In this document: positions 16,469 to 41,983 of the stretch, in pieces
How the letters are laid out: the number at the start of each line of letters is the position of its first letter
How positions within the stretch are numbered: the first letter of the stretch is position 1
NCBI GenBank assembly: GCA_029259415.1
Contig: JAPDIW010000043.1
Coordinates: forward strand, 1 to 42,122
Source: Archaeoglobi archaeon
GTDB lineage: Archaea > Halobacteriota > Archaeoglobi > Archaeoglobales > Archaeoglobaceae
DNA: 42,122 nucleotides
Direction of reading: 5' to 3'
Position numbers and translations under genes: made by a program
Notes under the pieces: generated by a model
Seen by the model: the letters and a program-made list of their open reading frames with translations, nothing else
The model's database searches: none
What the model was told of the DNA's origin: nothing

Positions 16469-16513
16469 CCTAATACTAAATTTTGTATCGAAAAGAGATA
16501 GGAGGTGTGTTGA

Positions 16514-16717
16514 ATGGCTGAGTTGCCGATGGCACCGGTTGACAGATTGATTAGGAAGGCTGGGGCTGAGAGAGTAAGTGCAGATGCAGTGGAAAAGATG
16601 GTCGAAGTGCTTGAGGACTACGCAATTACCGTTGCTAAGAGAGCCGTGGAAATTGCAAAGCACTCGGGCAGAAAGACCGTCACTGCAGACGACATTAAGC
16701 TCGCTCTCTCGATGTAA
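16514..16717 (+). CDS. Archaeal histone
   Basis: 67 aa; [77 protein letters not shown]6-ATG. Confidence 0.98.
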
Positions 16718-27874: not shown

Positions 27875-29997
27875 TTACGCATTTTTCCTTGTCCTGATCT
27901 TCACGTCCACAACCTCTGACCCCTCGGAGCTAACCATCACGGGGTTGCAGTACATCTCCGCTATTTCCGGGAACTCTTCGATCATGTAGCTGATTCTGAG
28001 TAAAGTTTCTACAAAAGAATCCACATCGGCCTTCTCGCCACCTCTGTAGCCTTCAAGCAGCTTGTATGCCTTCAACTCTTTCACCATCTCGTAGGCATCT
28101 GACCGGGTTATCGGTGTAACTCTCACGGAAACGTCCTTCATGAGCTCAGCAAGTATGCCACCTGCTCCGCACGTTATGAGCGGACCGAAAGCCGGGTCTT
28201 CTGCCACTCCAATGAACATCTCAACACCTTTGCTCATCCTCTGGACAAGGAAACCTTCAGGATTCAGAGTCTCCATCATTCTCTTCGCCTCCTCTCTTGC
28301 CTCTTCAGGGGGTGAGATTGACCTTAACCCGCCCCCTTCTCGGTTTTGTGGACTAATTCGGCTGAATGTGCCTTGAGAGCCACTCTACCAAACTTTTTTG
28401 CAGCCTCGTAGACACTCTCAGGGTCTCTCACATGTTCATATTTGGGGTACTTTATGCCAAAACAGCCGAGCAGCTCAAACGCCTTGTCTGGAGATAGCCA
28501 CTCTTCTTTTCCCATTGCCTCCGCAATTATGGCAGCAGCCTTTGCCCTGTCAAAATCAAACGTCGGAATTGGCTCCTCTTTTTTCTCCCTCCACTTTGCG
28601 TACTCGACAACCTTTCCGAGAACCTTTGCAGCTGTGTTCGGGAAAACATAGACAGGAACCTTTACTTCATCCCCTATCACTCCATCCTTGGAATTGCTGC
28701 TTATGTAGATGTAAACCACAGGCTTTCCGAGAGAGTTGGCATACTTGGCAGCCGAAATAACAGCTCTCTCAACCGCCTCGCTCTTTTCCTTGCTGATGGC
28801 AGGGACGAAAATGTTTATTATGGCATCAACGTTCTCATCCTCAGCCACAATTTTCAGAGTGTTACCGTAATTCTCGACGTTTGCTGAAGCAGTCATGTCA
28901 ACTGGGTTCTTTACACTCGCAATGTCGGGCAGAATTTTTCCTCAGTTTTTCCATCGTCTCTGGTTTCAGCTCAGCAACCTCCAGACCTACCTGCTCACAC
29001 CAGTCGGAGGTTATTGCACCCAAACCTCCACCGTTCGTAACGATGCAAACTCTTCTTCCCTTTGGTAAGGGTTGGTGGAGAAGGAATGCTGAGATTGAAA
29101 ACAGCTCGTCAATCGAGCTAGCCCTGATTATTCCCGTTTGCTTGAAAAGTGCATCAATAGCCACTCCAGATGACGAAATTATCGCTCCAGTGTGTGAGGC
29201 TATAGCTCTCGCACCTGCAGGTGTAACTCCAGAAGCTATGGCAAGTATTAGCTTCTTTCTCTTGGCAAGTCTGGCAAACTTTCTTGGGTTGGAAATAGAC
29301 TCCTGGTAGAGCATAATCAGCTTCGTTCTCTCGTCATTTTCCCAGAATTCGATGAGGTCATTGCTGGTTATGTCAGCAACGTTTCCGAGAGACGCGAAGT
29401 AAGACAGTCCGAGGTCGTAGCTGTTGATTTTGTCCATAAGCCACTTTGAGATGCAAAGGCTATGCTTCCTTCGTGGGGTGGTATGGGGGCGAAGGATGCG
29501 AAAAGCCTAACGTCGGGAGAGGTGTTGATTATCCCCATGCAGTTGGGGCCGATTAGACGCATTCCGTACTTCCTGCATATCTCAACGAGTTTTCTCTGCC
29601 TCTCAACACCCTCACCGCCAACTTCGGCAAATCCTGCAGTTAAAACGAGCAGAGCCTTCACACCCTTCCTTCCACATTCTTCGGCAGCTTCAAGAGCGTA
29701 TTTTACTGCCACGGAAGTTACTGCCAGGTCTATTTCGTCAGGAATTTCCGAAAGCTTTTCGTAGGACTTTACGGCCATTATCGACTTAGCAGATTTGTTT
29801 ACCGGATAAACAACTCCGCTGAATCTGTAGGTGAGGATGTTGTAGAACGTTCTCCCACCAACCTTCTCAATGTCTCTGGAAGCACCAATAACCGCAACCG
29901 ATTTCGGATTGAAGAGGTTTCTTAGCGCATTGAACGTGGCTATTTTCTCCCTCTTCTCAAAATATGCCAGTACATCTTCAGTCAGAGTCGTTACCAT
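27875..29997 (-). pseudogene. ADP-forming acyl/acetyl-CoA synthetase, alpha-beta fusion, three frameshifts
   Basis: Four ORFs (29368-29997, 28898-29437, 28324-28896, 27875-28279) reconstruct one protein: NPKSVAVIGASRDIEKVGG..., IAFASQSGL/MDKINSYDLGLSYFASLGN, KILPDIASVKNPVDMTASANVENYG, LVHKTEKGGGLRSISPPEEAREEAKRMM. Confidence 0.88.
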
Positions 29998-30453
29998 TCC
30001 TTATCCCGATTTTTCCCTTTTCCGGCTTTATCTCCACCGGAAATCCAGATTCTTTAAAGACGTCTATTATGGCGTAGTTTTTCAGGAAGAACTTCACTTT
30101 CGAACACTTTTATGCCGTTCTTTTCCGCAATTTCCGCCATAGCTCCGAGCAAGATTGTTGCAACACCTTTTCCCTGAAAACCTTCTCTCACAACAAAACC
30201 GATCTCCGCGGTATCCTCCGAAATCTTTCTGTCGACTGAGTGGCCGATTATTTTGTCTCCAAAAACGGCTACGAGACCAAATTTTTCTTCGTTGCACTCA
30301 ACAAAATCTTCAACAATTTTGCAAACCTCCTCTTCGGAGGGTGTAAACATTGAACCTCATTCTCAGAGACTCTTCAGAAAGGGAAAGGTACAGTTCTTTC
30401 AGAGCTTCGTAGTCTTTTTCGCTCACAGATCTTAGCTTTACAAACGCTTCCAT
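29978..30453 (-). pseudogene. GNAT acetyltransferase, frameshifted, overlapping the acyl-CoA synthetase start
   Basis: Three frames join: MEAFVKLRSVSEKDYEALKELYLSLSEESLRMRFNV / FTPSEEEVCKIVEDFVECNEEKFGLVAVFGDKIIGHSVDRKISEDTAEIGFVVREGFQGKGVATILLGAMAEIAEKNGIKVFESEVLPE / NYAIIDVFKESGFPVEIKPEKGKIGIRNGNDSD*. Confidence 0.8.
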
Positions 30454-32010: not shown

Positions 32011-32727
32011 ATGCGTGTAAGGGTTGATCTAACACCCCTTGAGGGTGTTGCCAAGATTGACCTAAACTACTTTTACTATCTCGCTTCTCTCATATATCGG
32101 GCGATAAGGTCTGCGGACAGAACCCTTTCACTGGAACTCCACAAGCCTTATGGCCCTAAGCTTTTCACGTTCAGTAAACTTTTCGCTGAAAACTTCAAAA
32201 TTGAAAGAAACCGGATGTGGATTGAGGGTCCAGCCCACTTTTTCTTTTCCTCACCGAAGAACGAGATGTGTGAGAAGTTCGTTGAAGGACTTCTAACGAA
32301 TCCGGAGGTAAGTATAGGAAATGTACAATTTCTCGTTACAGGTATTGAGGTTTTGAGGGAAAAGAAAATAGGGGAGAAAGAGAAGTTTGTCACACTGAGT
32401 CCAATAGCTGTCACAACAGTCGAACGTCAGGGTTACTCCAGAAGAAGTGTTGACCTCTACCCATCAGATGCAAGATTTTACGAAATTTTGAAGAGAAATC
32501 TCGTGAAAAAATACGTTGCTCTCCACGGCAAAGAGCCAGAGAATGATGAATTGAATATAGAGCCAATTTCCGTAAAGCCGAAGAGGCTGAGAGTAAAGAA
32601 TACATTTCACCGCTGTTCGGAAATGGTTTTTCTCGCTGAGGGGAGCAGAGAGCTTCTTGAGGTAGGGTACAAGGCAGGATTTGGGGCGAAGAACAGCATG
32701 GGGTTCGGGATGGTGAAGGTGGTATGA
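32011..32727 (+). CDS. cas6: CRISPR endoribonuclease Cas6
   Basis: C-terminal G-rich loop GYKAGFGAKNSMGFGMVKVV; first gene of the cas operon. Confidence 0.93.
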   Translation: MRVRVDLTPLEGVAKIDLNYFYYLASLIYRAIRSADRTLSLELHKPYGPKLFTFSKLFAENFKIERNRMWIEGPAHFFFSSPKNEMCEKFVEGLLTNPEVSIGNVQFLVTGIEVLREKKIGEKEKFVTLSPIAVTTVERQGYSRRSVDLYPSDARFYEILKRNLVKKYVALHGKEPENDELNIEPISVKPKRLRVKNTFHRCSEMVFLAEGSRELLEVGYKAGFGAKNSMGFGMVKVV

Positions 32728-34223
32728 GTCGCAGTAATTTAGTAAAGGGGGGTTGTTCCGAGAAAGAGAGGCAAGTAAGTGCTGTGGAATTTTATTGGAC
32801 AGGACATCCTTTTGTGGATGCAGGTTTGGTTGCGATTTTACTAATTGCCAAGAAGAGTAAACCAGAAGAACTTACTGAAAAAGACATAGAAAAGGCGATA
32901 AAGTTTACTTCTGAACTCTATGCAACAAAGGAATGGAGTTCCGGTTATATTCACGGAATGATTTTCCCCAACAACGGAATACTTATGGCAAATCCAAGCA
33001 TGGGCAAAAGTAGATCACCTGAAAAAATAGCAAAGAGGCTTAGAATTCTTTACGAAAATATTTCGACAACTATGAACGAAGAATATGAAAGTAGGTGTAT
33101 AATTTGTGGCAGACAAAAACCAGCGTACGAGTTTCCACAACTATCCAAAGATGTGGTCAGATCAGGAATAGTTAGATCGGTTTTTTCATTGCTTGGTACC
33201 GGTGATGTGAACAATTTCTTTCCGTCGGCAAACATAAAAGGAGCTGATGTATGCACACACTGTCTTTTTTTGACCCAATTCATGCCGCTCGCATCTTACA
33301 GACTTTCGAGAGTATTGGTAATACACGCCTACCCCTATGAAGTCATGCTTGAGCTTTCTAAAGAAGCTCTTAAAGATGTAAAGAAAAGTAAACTCGCTTC
33401 TCAAGCGAGAGGATTTAGAAGGCCAGAAAACTTCCTTTTCCACATTATAGGAGAAATAACGAGAAAAATAGAAAGAGATAACTTTTGGGAGAGGGCTTCA
33501 ATAACCCTCTACTATTTTATATGTAACAACCAGAATCAAATTTTAGATGTTATCCACGTTCCAACTCCAGTGCTAAGATTTGTCACTTATGCGAGCACAA
33601 AAAATGAGTGGAAGCGTATTGTTTCAATGGGGTGGGAGAAAACACCAAAAGAAGAACAATTTGAAGAGTTTGAGCGCAAATACTCTAATAAAGTTTATAC
33701 AAAACTTTTGAATTACGAAAGCATTTTGCCATATTTTTACAACTGGAAGGAGAAAAGAGTAAATGCGAGTTGGGATCTTTTGGCTTTTTATTGCAAGGAG
33801 GTGATGGGGTTGAATGAGAAAGCTTTGGATTTTATAAAAGATGTCGGAGACAGAATAGTTGAAACTTTGAACATGCTACCTACTAACAAAATGAGAAAAA
33901 GAGTCAGAGAACTAGAAACTGCAGAAGAAAAGGGGAGAGGTTTGGGTCGATTTGCATCGTTTTTTGTGAGATTAGAAAAGGATAGGCAAGAATTGGGTAT
34001 TGCAACACCACTAATGACGTTCGACGAATTTGCAAAAATTCTTACAGCTTATGGGGAAGATATAAATGTCTCTTGGAAGACTGTTAAGAATCTTATTCTG
34101 TTTCGCATTTATGAAAAGCTGCACGATAAATTAATAGAAACTGGAAAAACTAAAGATGAGTTTGAGGGATTTGAAGAGGAGGAGGGTTTAAGCATTTATA
34201 CTGAAGGGGGTGATGAGGTATGA
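32724..34223 (+). CDS. cas8: Type I-B-like Cas8 (Cst1-like, CXXC..CXXC)
   Basis: 499 aa; CIICGRQKPAYEFP ... CTHCLFLTQFMPLASYRLSRVLVIHAYP; position between cas6 and cas7. Confidence 0.82.
   Translation: MSRSNLVKGGCSEKERQVSAVEFYWTGHPFVDAGLVAILLIAKKSKPEELTEKDIEKAIKFTSELYATKEWSSGYIHGMIFPNNGILMANPSMGKSRSPEKIAKRLRILYENISTTMNEEYESRCIICGRQKPAYEFPQLSKDVVRSGIVRSVFSLLGTGDVNNFFPSANIKGADVCTHCLFLTQFMPLASYRLSRVLVIHAYPYEVMLELSKEALKDVKKSKLASQARGFRRPENFLFHIIGEITRKIERDNFWERASITLYYFICNNQNQILDVIHVPTPVLRFVTYASTKNEWKRIVSMGWEKTPKEEQFEEFERKYSNKVYTKLLNYESILPYFYNWKEKRVNASWDLLAFYCKEVMGLNEKALDFIKDVGDRIVETLNMLPTNKMRKRVRELETAEEKGRGLGRFASFFVRLEKDRQELGIATPLMTFDEFAKILTAYGEDINVSWKTVKNLILFRIYEKLHDKLIETGKTKDEFEGFEEEEGLSIYTEGGDEV
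33810..34223 (+). CDS. cas11: Predicted internally translated Cas11-like small subunit (within cas8)
   Basis: In-frame TTG at 33810 preceded by AAGGAGGTGAT (33795-33805), GGAGGTG-N6-TTG; would give ~137-aa product LNEKALDFIKDVGDRIVETLNMLPTNKMRKRVRELE...; alternative ATG at 33804. Confidence 0.55.
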   Translation: MNEKALDFIKDVGDRIVETLNMLPTNKMRKRVRELETAEEKGRGLGRFASFFVRLEKDRQELGIATPLMTFDEFAKILTAYGEDINVSWKTVKNLILFRIYEKLHDKLIETGKTKDEFEGFEEEEGLSIYTEGGDEV

Positions 34224-35335
34224 AGTTTGCTGTTGGAATGGTTTTGATAGACGCTCCACACTCGGCCCTAAATATGCTGGGTCAAACAGGAGTTGCAGAA
34301 GAGAACAGAGTAGAAGTAAAGAAACTTAGAAAAGGCCGAGAAATGTATGCTTATGTATCTTCACAAGCATGGCGTTATTGGTGGAGAAAAACTTTAGAAG
34401 AACACTATGAGTGGAAGATATCTCCTCTTTTTAGGGCAGAAAAGCAAGTGTTTACAGCGGCCAATCCGATTAAGTACGATGATGACGATGTTTTTGGTTA
34501 TATGTGGGCACCAAAAACCCAAAGAGGTGATGAAGGAGGCTTCGCCTTAACTAGAATTTCTCCGCTTAAAACGACACCTCTAATTTCAATCCTTCCAACC
34601 AGAAACTCTTTAACGGAGGATAAAGGGTTTGCTTCTAGACATGAGGGAGACCCAGTACCTTACAATAATGAGTTTTATTCAACTATACTGAAAGGTGTAT
34701 TTTCTCTAGATCTTGATAGTATTGGTAAATTTAATATCAAATACAAGTCGGGTTATCTGAACTTGATTACACCCAAATCAATAGAGAGACTGACTCAGAA
34801 CGTTTCCAAGAAAGATAAAGTAAAAAAAGCCATTAATAGAGCCCTCAAAGAGATGGATTATGAAAACAATTATTTAAAACCAGCAAAAGAAATTGGTGTA
34901 AAGATTAACGAAAAAGAATGGATAATGCCAAACGAAATCAGAAAGAAAAGAGCGAGCGAGACGATTAAAGCACTTAGGTACATATTCGGAGGCGCAAAGC
35001 AAACACAATATCTTACGGACGTAACACCGAAATTTGCAATCTTAGCGATGCTTGAGGGTGGTATAAATCCGTTTATAAGTGGAATTGTTTACGAAGAGAA
35101 AGGAGAAGTAAAATTTGACTCAGAAGCTTTGATTTCAAGGATGCTTGAGTTTGCAGACATTTTAAATCCAAAGAAGCTGTTTGTTGGCAAAGATAAAGGA
35201 TTCATGAAAGAATGGGACGAAGAGATATCTAAAGTCAAACACACTCTAAGCGAGAATGGAATTAGTGTTGAAATCACTACAGTCGGTGATGCGTTAGAAA
35301 AGTTTGCCAAAGAAGTTGAAGCTTACTACGGTTGA
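34220..35335 (+). CDS. cas7: Cas7 (Cst2/DevR-like)
   Basis: 371 aa; HSALNMLGQTGVAEENRVEVKKLRKGREMYAYVSSQAWRYWWRKTL. Confidence 0.9.
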   Translation: MKFAVGMVLIDAPHSALNMLGQTGVAEENRVEVKKLRKGREMYAYVSSQAWRYWWRKTLEEHYEWKISPLFRAEKQVFTAANPIKYDDDDVFGYMWAPKTQRGDEGGFALTRISPLKTTPLISILPTRNSLTEDKGFASRHEGDPVPYNNEFYSTILKGVFSLDLDSIGKFNIKYKSGYLNLITPKSIERLTQNVSKKDKVKKAINRALKEMDYENNYLKPAKEIGVKINEKEWIMPNEIRKKRASETIKALRYIFGGAKQTQYLTDVTPKFAILAMLEGGINPFISGIVYEEKGEVKFDSEALISRMLEFADILNPKKLFVGKDKGFMKEWDEEISKVKHTLSENGISVEITTVGDALEKFAKEVEAYYG

Positions 35336-35338
35336 TAT

Positions 35339-35986
35339 ATGATTCGCGTAAAAATAAAAAGTTGGACTGCAAGTTTCCGGTATCCTACATTCCAGTCAGG
35401 GTATCAGCCAACTTTACCCGTTCCACCGCTTTCTACCATCCAAGGACTTCTGTCAGCGGCCAGAGGAGAGATAGTCTCTTTCAGCGAAATTCCATTTTTC
35501 GGGTATGTTTTCATAAGTAATGGTACAGGAGTCGATTTGGAAAGAATCTATGCATTAGGAAAACCAGAGACAGATGTAATAAAGCGAGAAGTGTTGTTTG
35601 ACAATATTCTTTATCTTTATTTACCAGAAGAGTGGGGGGAATATTTCAAAAAACCGAGATTTCAATTATTGCTCGGTCGTTCAAGCGACATAGCAACTGT
35701 AGAAAAGATAGATAAGGTTGAACTTGAGGAAAAAACGAACGTTCCTGTTGGTGGGGTTGTTGTTCCCATGAATTCTGGCTTGCCAGGTATGGTTCACGCA
35801 CTTCCAGTCGAATTTGATTACTCAACAATTCCAAGAAGGGCAAAATTGGTAAAACCATTTGTTGTTCTACCATTTCCAAAGAATATAGCCCAGAGAAAGA
35901 GGCAGACTTTCCACGGCAGTCTTCCTTATGACCCTCAAATAGACATCGGAGTATGGCTATATGAAGGTCTGCATGGCAAAGTTTAA
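35339..35986 (+). CDS. cas5: Cas5
   Basis: 215 aa; SWTASFRYPTFQSGYQPTLPVPPLSTIQGLLSAARGE N-terminal Cas5 motif. Confidence 0.92.
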   Translation: MIRVKIKSWTASFRYPTFQSGYQPTLPVPPLSTIQGLLSAARGEIVSFSEIPFFGYVFISNGTGVDLERIYALGKPETDVIKREVLFDNILYLYLPEEWGEYFKKPRFQLLLGRSSDIATVEKIDKVELEEKTNVPVGGVVVPMNSGLPGMVHALPVEFDYSTIPRRAKLVKPFVVLPFPKNIAQRKRQTFHGSLPYDPQIDIGVWLYEGLHGKV

Positions 35987-38177
35987 CCCAAACGATTTTC
36001 TTGAATGTCATGTAAATGATGCCATTAATGTGATGAAGAGCATAAAAACTGCCTTTCCTTGGATTTCTGAAATACGCAAAAATTTCTGGGAGCTTCTTTT
36101 TTATTCTATTCTTTTGCATGATTTAGGCAAGTGTGCAATAGGATTCCAAATTGCTGGTGCAAAAGGAAAAATCTGGGGGTACAGACATGAGATCCTTTCG
36201 ACGGCGTTTTCACAGTTTTTAGATTACGAAGAGGAAGAAAGAAATTTGATATCCCTTGCAACTATGACCCACCACAAATACTTGGATGACCCTAGCCTTA
36301 CAGTACCAACTAGAGCTGAAGAATTTGTATGGAGGAGTTACCTTGATAAGATTGATGAGGTTCTTAAAAATTCCGACTATATTGAGGAAGTTTTTATGCC
36401 TAAAATCCCGTACTGGGAGATTTACGTATTTGGCAAAACTATTGGCAAGTTTAAACTCTCAGGTGACTGGAAGTCGAGACTTGGAGAATTCGACTTTGAC
36501 AGCCTTCTAAATTGGTATGATCGAAATTGGGAAAAATACAAGGAAGAACTAATTTTTCTCAAGGGACTGTTAAATGCATGCGACCATCTATCATCTGCAG
36601 GTGAGAATTCAGTAAGGTTTCTTCCCCCCATAGCTGATACTATAGCATTCAGAATCCCAAGAGAGGATTGGAGACCTTTGCAGAAGCAAGCAAATCAGAT
36701 TAAAGAGAATCTCCTTCTCCGGGCCCCTACAGGGTATGGAAAAACTGAAAGCGCTCTTTTATGGGCAGATGTCAACAGCCATAAAAACAAAAACGGAGTT
36801 TCTAACAGGATTTTCTATGTTCTCCCGTATAAAGCGAGTATTAATGCGATGTATGAGAGAATGTTAGACTACTTCAGAAGTCCAGAGCTAGTTGGTGTTT
36901 TGCACAGCTCTTCTTCCTATTACCTCTACGCTTCAAATTTTGAATACAAACGTCTTTCGAGTCTTTACCAAAAAATATACACACCTTTGAAGGTCACAAC
37001 ACCATTTCAGATAATGAAGGCGTTTTTTGGTGTTGGTTTCTTTGAAATGACGTTGAGCGAGCTGAAAAATGCTCTGCTAATCTTTGATGAAATACATGCC
37101 TACGAACCAAATATTCTAGGCATAATTCTCGCAATGCTGGAGATACTTAAGGAATACAAAACGAAAGCTCTAATCATGTCTGCAACTCTGCCAGACTTTA
37201 TTGAGGATCTTTTTGTGGAGTTGTTGAAGCCAGAAAGGTTGGAAATTCCGAGAAATGACGCCGATTTATTCACAAGGCACCGTATTATAATCGTTAGGGG
37301 GAATATTGAGGAAAACCTTCAAGATTTTGCAGAGGAATTTAAGGAGAGAAATCTCACACCTGCATTAATTACATGTAACACTGTCGATAGAGCTATTGAG
37401 GTTTACAAGAGACTTAGAAGCCTTGGATATCGAGCTATGCTCCTACACAGCAGGTTTACATATGGAGACAGAGAGGAGCTTGAAAGAAAATTAAAGCAAG
37501 ACCTGAGCAGTTATGACTTCGTCGTTGCAACACAGGTTGTCGAAGTATCGCTGGATATAAGCTTTCGGACTATATTAACTGAACCAGCACCTCTTGATGC
37601 ACTTATTCAGAGGTTTGGAAGAGTGAACCGACAGGGCTGGAAGGAAAAGCGAATATCTGATGTCTATGTTCTAACTGAAGGATCAGAGAAGGATAAAAAC
37701 GTTTACAAACCATATGACGTTGTAAGAGAGAGTATTAAAATTTTAGAAAGTTTAGACGGGCATGAACTCAAGGAGTCTCTTATCCCCAATCTTGTATCTC
37801 AGAGCTACTCCAAACATAAGAATCAGCTCATCAAAGAAATTAATGAATATAGAGCCACTGCTCTCGAACTTTTTGAAGACTTACAACCACTCAAAAAGAC
37901 TGAGAGTGAAGATGAATTTTACAGAATGTTCCAAGGTTTAGAAGTGGTACCGGCGAGATTTGAAAGTAGAGTGGACGAACTGATTAACAGCGGGAGAGGA
38001 GTAGAAGTTTATCGGTATTTGGTGCCTCTACCATACTGGAAGTTCTTTGCTTTAAAGAATAAATTTGGTGAAATAATTAATTACAACAGAAATCACAGAA
38101 TATTTGTTGCTAATCTAAAATACAATCACGAGCTTGGACTTACTGACGAAATCGAGGATTCTGCAACGATTATTTAA
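35961..38177 (+). CDS. cas3: Cas3 HD nuclease-helicase
   Basis: 738 aa; LLHDLGKCAIGFQ, RHEILSTAF, THHKYLDD (HD), LRAPTGYGKTESALLWA (Walker A), LIFDEIHAYEP, QRFGRVNRQG. Start may be ATG 35973. Confidence 0.95.
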   Translation: MKVCMAKFNPNDFLECHVNDAINVMKSIKTAFPWISEIRKNFWELLFYSILLHDLGKCAIGFQIAGAKGKIWGYRHEILSTAFSQFLDYEEEERNLISLATMTHHKYLDDPSLTVPTRAEEFVWRSYLDKIDEVLKNSDYIEEVFMPKIPYWEIYVFGKTIGKFKLSGDWKSRLGEFDFDSLLNWYDRNWEKYKEELIFLKGLLNACDHLSSAGENSVRFLPPIADTIAFRIPREDWRPLQKQANQIKENLLLRAPTGYGKTESALLWADVNSHKNKNGVSNRIFYVLPYKASINAMYERMLDYFRSPELVGVLHSSSSYYLYASNFEYKRLSSLYQKIYTPLKVTTPFQIMKAFFGVGFFEMTLSELKNALLIFDEIHAYEPNILGIILAMLEILKEYKTKALIMSATLPDFIEDLFVELLKPERLEIPRNDADLFTRHRIIIVRGNIEENLQDFAEEFKERNLTPALITCNTVDRAIEVYKRLRSLGYRAMLLHSRFTYGDREELERKLKQDLSSYDFVVATQVVEVSLDISFRTILTEPAPLDALIQRFGRVNRQGWKEKRISDVYVLTEGSEKDKNVYKPYDVVRESIKILESLDGHELKESLIPNLVSQSYSKHKNQLIKEINEYRATALELFEDLQPLKKTESEDEFYRMFQGLEVVPARFESRVDELINSGRGVEVYRYLVPLPYWKFFALKNKFGEIINYNRNHRIFVANLKYNHELGLTDEIEDSATII

Positions 38178-38251: not shown

Positions 38252-38527
38252 TCAGATTACTTCATCCATGCTGCTCTTCTCCACTCCAATAACTTCTCTC
38301 TTCATCGCATCAGCACTTCTAAGCCTGTATATCACAATCATGTCCTCCTCCTCGTTTATAATCTCCCTCAGCCCCATCTTGACTTCCTCAAGGTCTGCCT
38401 GCGTTAGTTCGCCCTCAAACAGCGAATTCTGAATCCAGTTCAGGTGCTTCCTGAGAAACTTCTTTACCTTATTTACCCTCTCGACATTAACATCGTAGGC
38501 GATTATCACATACATTGCTACCACCAC
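38252..38527 (-). CDS. cas2: Cas2
   Basis: 91 aa; [41 protein letters not shown] (ORF start annotated 4 codons upstream). Confidence 0.95.
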
Positions 38528-39486
38528 ATCACAAAGGGCTTGTACTTCTCAGCATTCAGGATGTGCTTAACGAGCTTGTAGCATTCAAGCCTTATCAGCC
38601 GCTGATAGGAGACTTTCCTGCCCAGCGTTCTGTGCTTTATAGTCCTCTCAAGTCTCTCGTTGAATGCCTTTAGAAACTTCTTTTTTCCGCTCTCACTCAG
38701 AAGGACGCCCCTAAACTCTTCATCAAAATCCCCTTCATCAACCATTTTCTTATTGACGAGGGAGATGACGAGCCTGTCCACGAGGAGAGGCTTGAAAATC
38801 TCAGCAATGTCGAGCGAGAGGCTGAATCTCCTCTCAGAAGGCTCGTGGAGATAGCTAATTGCCGGATGGAGTTGGGTGTGGTAGATTTCGGTAAGAACCG
38901 CAGAATACAGGAGAGAGTTTCCGAAGCTGATCATGGCGTTAACTTCATTCTCTGGCGGTTGTCTGCTCCTCTTCTCGAACTTCATTCCGGTCAGAATGCT
39001 GTCGAACTTTGAGTAATACTCCGTCCTTGCTGCAGCTTCAGTTCCCATCACTTCCTCCACGCTTTCTGCCTCACCAAGGCTCTGAAGAGCTGAAATTACT
39101 CCTGTATCATCCTCCCCACTCCTCCTCAGCACACGTGCCATGTTCATAATACTACCTTCAACGAAAGCCTTTGCCAAATATAGCCTCCTCTCCCTGTCAA
39201 GGTAGTGCTCAGCCTGCCTCACCACCACTTCACCCGAAATCAGGCTCTCTCTGGGGTAAAACGAGCCAGTATAGTAGCCGTATCTGTTGAAGAAGTGCAC
39301 GCACACACCTTCCCTGGCCAGATAGTTGAGAGCCTGTGAGGTTATTGTAAGCGAGCCGAGAGCGTATATGGCGTAGATTGAGTTTATCGGAATTGGCCTT
39401 CTTCCTTCGGCGTTCTCAAAGTATATCGTGTTCTCCTTCCTTTTCAGCTTGCCGTCAGAGACTATGTAGAAGTTCTTTTTCCTCAT
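38518..39486 (-). CDS. cas1: Cas1
   Basis: 322 aa; [79 protein letters not shown]. Confidence 0.97.
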
Positions 39487-39489
39487 TTG

Positions 39490-39993
39490 TCACCCTGAAA
39501 AACAGAACTCAAAATAAGCACACTTTCTGCAGTGCTTTTTCCTGACGGGCTTTGGCATCTCCTTTTTTCTCTTCAACTCGTCGATTTCCCTCAAAATCTT
39601 CTCCAAATCTTTTGACTTCTCCTCGTCCAGCTCGACATTCACAACTTCCTTGCTCTTTGGATATGTGATTCTGCCCTTGGCGGATATTCCAAGATTGGAG
39701 AGGTAAAAGAGATAGTAGAGCATCTGGAAAATGTCAGCTTTTTCCATTGATTTCGCCTTCTTTACCTCCTGAATCTCCAGCTCATTTCCTTTCCTGACAA
39801 CATCTATTGCTATTGCCCCAATCTGAACATCTTTTCTTTCTCTCTGGTAGAATTCCTTATGGACGAGCTTTCCGAGTTTTACAATATCGCTTTCCCTCTC
39901 CAAATTCACGTTGTGGCTGAAAAGCCATAGTTTGGTCTTACAAACAAAGTAATAGTTAACCTCTACACCTCTGATGTACATTTCATCAACCAT
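39490..39993 (-). CDS. cas4: Cas4
   Basis: 167 aa; EIQEVKKAKSMEKADIFQMLYYLFYL, and KHCRKCAYFEFCFSG cysteine cluster. Confidence 0.95.
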   Translation of the reverse strand: MVDEMYIRGVEVNYYFVCKTKLWLFSHNVNLERESDIVKLGKLVHKEFYQRERKDVQIGAIAIDVVRKGNELEIQEVKKAKSMEKADIFQMLYYLFYLSNLGISAKGRITYPKSKEVVNVELDEEKSKDLEKILREIDELKRKKEMPKPVRKKHCRKCAYFEFCFSG

Positions 39994-40388: not shown

Positions 40389-41983
40389 GTTGAAATCAGA
40401 CCAAAATGGGATTGAAAGGATTTGAGATACCGCAAAGTGCAGTTTGAAGTGATCAAGCGTTGAAATCAGACCAAAATGGGATTGAAAGGATGCAGCGGTT
40501 GTTGGGGTTCATCAGGCATCAGCCTCGTTGAAATCAGACCAAAATGGGATTGAAAGTTCTTCCGTTAGCTGCGTAAGCCATCCCTGTCATCTTGTCGTTG
40601 AAATCAGACCAAAATGGGATTGAAAGGATGGTTCTTCCGTTTGATGAGCTTGAGAAACTAATGTTGAAATCAGACCAAAATGGGATTGAAAGACCCATAT
40701 ACAAACACATCTCCACCTCACTCCATCCTGCGTTGAAATCAGACCAAAATGGGATTGAAAGGAGTTTTCCCACTGCCTGTAATTCCGCAAATAAGCGTTG
40801 AAATCAGACCAAAATGGGATTGAAAGATGTCCACAACAACTTCTGCCACATTGACAGTGCCGCAGTTGAAATCAGACCAAAATGGGATTGAAAGAGGAAT
40901 GGTGTTTAACATCGACATTCGAAACATTTGCGTTGAAATCAGACCAAAATGGGATTGAAAGGCTTCTTCCATATTCCACCACCCTATGTCCGTTCAATTC
41001 GTTGAAATCAGACCAAAATGGGATTGAAAGGGAAGTTTTCAAGGTGCTGGTCTAAATAGCGTGTAAGGGTTGAAATCAGACCAAAATGGGATTGAAAGTT
41101 ATATAGCGTTCAAAAGCTGCTGTCAGTTCGGATGTTGAAATCAGACCAAAATGGGATTGAAAGGAATCTTGACCATATCTGCAATTTCCTCATTCTTGAT
41201 GTTGAAATCAGACCAAAATGGGATTGAAAGAAGACCCTTTGACCAAAACAGGAGTCAGCTGTACTTTGTTGAAATCAGACCAAAATGGGATTGAAAGATG
41301 TAGGTCTTATCTTGAACAGCTTAAGCAGTAACCCACCGTTGAAATCAGACCAAAATGGGATTGAAAGAGATTTTTTCGAGCCAGTCGAGGTTTGCGAAGG
41401 CAATATCGTTGAAATCAGACCAAAATGGGATTGAAAGTGAAATGCTCGCAAAGTTCAGAGCGGAAGGTAAGCTGGTTGAAATCAGACCAAAATGGGATTG
41501 AAAGGCGGCTTTTATTTCATATATAATGTTCTGTATGATCTCCAGTTGAAATCAGACCAAAATGGGATTGAAAGGTAAAATTCGAGAGGTGGCGTGTATT
41601 CTTCAAGCTCCTGTTGAAATCAGACCAAAATGGGATTGAAAGTCTCCAGCAATCGCATCAACGAAAATCTCTGCTACCACCGTTGAAATCAGACCAAAAT
41701 GGGATTGAAAGACAAGTATGCACTTCTCCTTAACTCCTCTCAAACCCATGTTGAAATCAGACCAAAATGGGATTGAAAGATTAATCTTTAAAAAGCCTGA
41801 CTCGTGCTTTAGCCATAGTTGAAATCAGACCAAAATGGGATTGAAAGCTGGATCTTTCCTCTTGTCAATAACTTTGAAGTTCCTGTTGAAATCAGACCAA
41901 AATGGGATTGAAAGGTTTTCTCTATTTTAAGAGCATACACACCTCTCTCAAGCGTTGAAATCAGACCAAAATGGGATTGAAAG
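40389..41983 (+). CRISPR. CRISPR array: 24 identical 30-bp repeats, 23 spacers (~34-40 bp)
   Basis: Repeat GTTGAAATCAGACCAAAATGGGATTGAAAG at 40389, 40459, 40527, 40597, 40663, 40732, 40797, 40865, 40932, 41001, 41069, 41134, 41201, 41268, 41338, 41408, 41475, 41545, 41613, 41682, 41750, 41818, 41885, 41954. Confidence 0.99.

Follow-up and report, generated by a model that had tools for sequence, protein, structure and literature searches.

Internal translation of the small subunit Cas11 from the large-subunit gene has been published for CRISPR-Cas types I-B, I-C, and I-D (McBride et al. 2020, reviewed in PMC10212523). Cas11d in cas10d of type I-D and Cas11c in cas8c of type I-C are translated from in-frame internal starts, and wide conservation of the internal start was reported for type I-D (PMC10212523, PMC7684278). 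In the type I-B system of the archaeon Haloferax volcanii, Cas11b is translated from an internal Met of cas8b, as found by a Met-to-Ala mutation and mass spectrometry, and is needed for effective interference (PMC11899642). In the type I-B system of Synechocystis PCC 6714, free Cas11b corresponds to the helical C-terminal domain of Cas8b and supports the non-target strand (PMC11096372). The stoichiometry of this complex is Cas8b1-Cas7b7-Cas5b1-Cas6b1-Cas11b3, with three Cas11b per Cas8b (PMC11096372, PDB 8H67). In the I-B1 system of Thermotoga maritima, a 15.1 kDa Cas11 required for assembly was proposed to lie inside cas8; however, no Cas11 was obtained from the proposed internal site in E. 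coli, and the protein was provided from a gene of its own (PMC13199841).

In the present study, we examined the cas8 gene in a stretch of 42,122 nucleotides (the window) from an Archaeoglobi archaeon (contig JAPDIW010000043.1 of assembly GCA_029259415.1). It is highly probable that an internal start in this gene makes its C-terminal end as a separate small protein, the predicted Cas11. The original prediction had relied on internal Cas11 translation in types I-D, I-B, and I-C, and the literature bears this out (PMC10212523, PMC11096372, PMC11899642). As other type I systems are known to use this mechanism, the Cas8b1/Cst1 site is a well-supported further case. The titles and abstracts of open-access literature naming Archaeoglobus and Cas11 contain no apparent report of an internal Cas11 in Archaeoglobus.

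The locus resembles that of H. volcanii in being an archaeal type I-B system with a putative in-frame internal start close to the 3' third of cas8b, whereas H. volcanii belongs to another organism group and has an ATG start, a weak GGATG Shine-Dalgarno sequence (SD), and a product of about 29 kDa (PMC11899642). With Synechocystis PCC 6714, it shares a (putative) ribosome-binding site inside cas8b, at its 3' end (PMC11096372); in contrast, the Synechocystis system is bacterial with a Myxan-type Cas8b (formerly Cmx8), and the chains of its complex (8H67) gave no sequence match to the window protein. An arrangement of the Synechocystis or Haloferax type would explain every feature of the window cas8. 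The large subunits of types I-D and I-C are different proteins (Cas10d and Cas8c). The large subunit of T. maritima is also called Cas8b1, and the null result in E. coli counts against a nested cas11 in the window cas8.

The features of the locus are listed in Table 1. In a profile search, the window cas8 scored 208.1 bits against TIGR01908 (Cas8b1/Cst1; curated cut-off, 19.4), and its operon partners, a Cst2-type cas7, cas5t, cas3, and cas6, fit this membership. The cysteines of its CxxC...CxxC motif (C125, C128, C177, and C180) are invariant or nearly so in the homolog alignment. The operon was originally described as having no separate cas11, and this is correct: cas6, cas8, cas7, cas5, and cas3 overlap or abut, and thus there is no room for one. 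A search of the same genome for Csa5 gave no match, but the control search was equally silent.

Table 1. Features of the type I-B locus and of the predicted nested gene (window coordinates)
Feature	Position	Strand	Evidence or remark
cas6	32011..32727	+	TIGR01877 E=2e-52; open frame from 31999, ATG at 32011
cas8 (Cas8b1/Cst1), large subunit, 499 aa, 58 kDa	32724..34223	+	TIGR01908 E=2e-61; PADLOC Cas8b E=1.6e-81
internal Shine-Dalgarno sequence GGAGGTG	33797..33803	+	anti-SD duplex; invariant in 10 Archaeoglobi-group orthologs
putative internal start codon TTG, cas8 codon 363 of 499	33810..33812	+	start codons in 33/33 homologs
predicted nested gene cas11, 137 aa, 15.9 kDa	33810..34223	+	AlphaFold2 and conserved columns
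cas7 (Cst2/DevR)	34220..35335	+	TIGR02585 E=2e-69; ATG overlaps cas8 stop
cas5 (Cas5t/Cas5b)	35339..35986	+	TIGR01895 E=6e-53
cas3 (HD + helicase)	35961..38177	+	TIGR01587 E=1e-98; TIGR01596 E=1e-25
cas2	38252..38527	-	TIGR01573 E=3e-14
cas1 (type I-B)	38518..39486	-	TIGR03641 E=4e-144
cas4	39490..39993	-	TIGR00372 E=1e-24
CRISPR array	40390..41983	not assigned	24 repeats of (G)TTGAAATCAGACCAAAATGGGATTGAAAG (exact repeat count), spacing 65-70 nt

The sequence AAGGAGGTGAT is located at 33795-33805 and is followed by a TTG in the cas8 frame, which ends with the stop codon at 34221-34223; the positions in the original prediction were exact. The 3' end of the 16S rRNA of the same genome is GGCTGGATCACCTCCT, which is complementary to the GGAGGTG motif. 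The anti-SD duplex energy was -16.9 kcal/mol for the internal SD, compared with -12.1 for the SD of cas8 itself, -16.0 for that of cas7, and -13.9 for that of L12. In a local RNA structure prediction, the bases of the internal SD remain single-stranded. The likeness to the L12 gene (15961-15976) and the histone gene (16501-16516) was confirmed; both have GGAGGTG-N6-ATG, and the GGAGGTG-N6-start spacing is found at all three sites. At ordinary gene starts with GGAGGTG in this genome, the N5 and N6 spacings are the commonest (17/25). TTG is a weaker start than ATG; it is the start codon at 4 of these 25 ordinary gene starts. As a chance baseline, we used 442 kb of the genome (20 × 20 kb and the window). 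Across 403 ORFs (123,248 codons), no internal in-frame GGAGGTG other than the cas8 site had a start codon 4-9 nt downstream. Initiation at GTG 33801 or ATG 33804 was also considered and rejected, because these codons are too near the SD and codon 361 varies: only the window and a single close relative have ATG there, the other homologs having TTG, ATT, or GCG.

The TIGR01908 profile and tblastn yielded 33 distinct homologs, the most distant at about 20% identity; most are from archaea, and one is from a Herpetosiphon plasmid. This was the only cas8 relative in the plasmid collection, and the phage and viral collections contained none. The proteins were aligned blind to the DNA and then read as codons. 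The column at the window TTG contains ATG in 24 sequences, TTG in seven, and GTG in two, and among 431 well-filled columns it is the only one occupied entirely by start codons (the next best, 66%). All seven Leu residues are encoded by TTG and both Val residues by GTG, whereas gene-wide these codons account for 18% of Leu and 20% of Val codons, respectively. The probability of this codon choice is 2.6e-7 if the sequences are independent, a value that is only a rough guide because the homologs are related. The tree requires a minimum of five codon changes at this site, each between start codons. One homolog (L018, G216:C124) has an in-frame TAG 22 codons past its internal ATG (ETIGE*EDNRLKR), with the rest of the frame intact and a normal end; this codon is an amber read-through site, a sequence error, or a sign of a broken gene.

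The SD is conserved at the nucleotide level. In 10 of 10 distinct genes of the Archaeoglobi group, the codons are NNG GAG GTG, which give GGAGGTG every time, and the residue before GAG GTG varies among Lys (AAG), Ser (TCG), Gln (CAG), and Val (GTG). In each of these genes, the SD was stronger than expected from 1000 synonymous recodings (p 0.004-0.038) and ranked second or third in strength among about 450-510 in-frame positions; in all of them it was also stronger than the SD of cas8 itself (-13.2 to -16.9 vs -8.4 to -12.1). Codons 358-364 form the top peak of synonymous constraint in cas8 (pairwise synonymous identity, z=12.6 in 7-codon windows, with non-independent pairs). The next distinct peak is the start region of cas8 itself, a positive control, although it shares sequence with the end of cas6. 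Beyond Archaeoglobi, many homologs have a weaker and less uniform SD (as in L021 and L039), and p<0.05 was obtained for 17 of the 33 homologs overall. Absence of conservation of the SD and the start at synonymous sites in relatives had been set beforehand as a refutation of the original prediction; the comparison gave strong evidence to the contrary.

The expectation of a product of about 137 aa, charged and helical, also held: the predicted protein is 137 aa long with 37% charged residues and five predicted helices. AlphaFold2 modeling of the Cas11 part with 30 sequences (the Herpetosiphon row was left out) gave a compact five-helix bundle (block pLDDT 89-98 over residues 1-110; pTM 0.73) followed by an acidic, disordered tail of 26 residues. 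Seven columns are invariant and five nearly invariant in the 30 sequences. Modeling of full-length Cas8 places the internal start in the linker that joins helix 350-359 to helix 365-384, where the Cas8 core gives way to the C-terminal bundle, and the first helix of the product begins just past the start. The top Foldseek match of the full-length model was a type I-C Cas8 chain (8dfs_I; E=0.015, 489 columns, TM-score 0.23) and the second was a type I-A Cas8 chain (7tr6_C, E=0.037); these were the only Cas proteins among the matches listed. In the fold comparison that had been proposed, the compact helical bundle was obtained, and the isolated 137 aa matched neither Cas11 nor any other protein significantly in Foldseek. 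Because the isolated bundle gave no significant match, it is position and shape, and not a fold match, that support its assignment to the Cas11 fold. Profile searches of PDB, Pfam, and PADLOC with the Cas11 part gave no Cas11 family; aminotransferase and interleukin-10 matches in the PDB sequence search were at chance level and were disregarded. A search for stand-alone Cas11 with a Cas11 profile detected only copies embedded in cas8 and one 81-aa fragment. In the genome with this fragment (G300; L016 and L082), cas8 is broken within the Cas11 part, and the matching 81-aa C-terminal fragment is on another contig.

The search with the Cas11 part also found further Cas8b proteins that TIGR01908 did not report (PADLOC PDLC01594). 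This second Cas8b family (L083-L087 and L089-L096) occurs in Archaeoglobi and has a C-terminal Cas11-like bundle. Two of its members score on no NCBIfam Cas family, and one member has a marginal match to Csm2 (E=0.048). At the homologous point, 7 of 7 examined genes contain TGGAGGTGG-N6-ATG (TGG AGG TGG N6 ATG, that is, GGAGGTG-N7-ATG). The motif is in another codon phase, encoding Trp-Arg-Trp, compared with x-Glu-Val in the TIGR01908 family. As the DNA motif is common to both families and the peptide is different, the nucleotide signal appears to be what is selected, and among the sequence comparisons the second family is the best evidence for such selection. Because GGAGGTG-N6/7-start is kept at the boundary of the Cas8 core and Cas11 in two codon phases, we tentatively raise the possibility, which we regard as rather unlikely, that an ancestral cas11 with its own ribosome-binding site was fused onto cas8 on two separate occasions, and that the leader became coding in different frames. 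In two short open frames of 127 and 89 aa (L097, G002:C4, and L098, G047:C2), the match to the second family is confined to its first 85-117 positions; both are truncated copies.

Conservation of the site could have other causes. Motifs resembling an SD have been suggested to slow elongation, and the present motif lies precisely where the Cas8 core meets the C-terminal bundle; a ribosome pause there might aid the folding of Cas8, and no separate protein would be made. We consider such a pause very improbable, as it predicts neither that the codon 6 nt downstream has stayed a start codon (ATG, TTG, or GTG) through at least five changes, with no synonymous Leu or Val codon, nor that the spacing is like that of true gene starts. 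Another explanation is that the peptide E-V-x-G-L/M is kept for structure at a helix boundary and that the SD and start arise incidentally from codon usage. E359, V360, and a hydrophobic residue at 363 are indeed conserved as amino acids within the group, but this does not account for the use of GAG over GAA, GTG over other Val codons, NNG at the variable residue, and only TTG for Leu, held in 10 of 10 genes. Nor does it account for the rarity with which an SD arises in synonymous shuffles, the position of the site at the top constraint peak of cas8, or the same DNA motif over the peptide W-R-W in the second family; the chance that the peptide explains the site is thus minute.

The small subunit might also come from a short transcript that starts inside cas8 and on which the SD acts, in which case the same protein would be made by separate transcription. 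The A+T-rich stretch upstream of the SD would suit this route, but starting on the operon mRNA calls for no additional element, and the proposal concerns the route and not the product; there is little likelihood that it applies.

With internal initiation on the operon mRNA, one frame of cas8 would give two proteins. Ribosomes from 32724 would make the 58 kDa Cas8b1 large subunit, and ribosomes recruited by the internal SD GGAGGTG would start at TTG 33810 and make the free 16 kDa C-terminal helical bundle, the putative Cas11. Along the Cas7 backbone, several free copies of Cas11 would stack beside the C-terminal domain of Cas8 and hold the DNA strand that is displaced in the R-loop. An internal SD stronger than that of cas8 fits a need for more Cas11 than Cas8. 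By analogy with the complexes of types I-B, I-C, and I-D, we infer the initiation, the assembly into Cascade, the copy number, and the role of Cas11 at the R-loop. The suggestion that a Cst1-type Cas8 works in the same way as these systems gains support from the conserved SD and start, the modeled helical bundle, and the motif of the second family.

This finding would extend internally translated Cas11 to Cas8b1/Cst1 of Archaeoglobi, Methanosarcina-type archaea, and a Herpetosiphon plasmid, as well as to a second Cas8b family. Reconstitution of Cascade from Cas8b1/Cst1 and second-family systems should include Cas11. Other nested genes can be found by a purely genomic signature, namely an alignment column made up wholly of ATG, TTG, or GTG that follows a conserved SD.

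Elsewhere in the window (27875-30350, minus strand), an acyl-CoA synthetase (GNAT/CoA-binding/succinyl-CoA ligase/ATP-grasp) is apparently contained in five ORFs with frame breaks between them; it appears to be a pseudogene or to reflect assembly errors.
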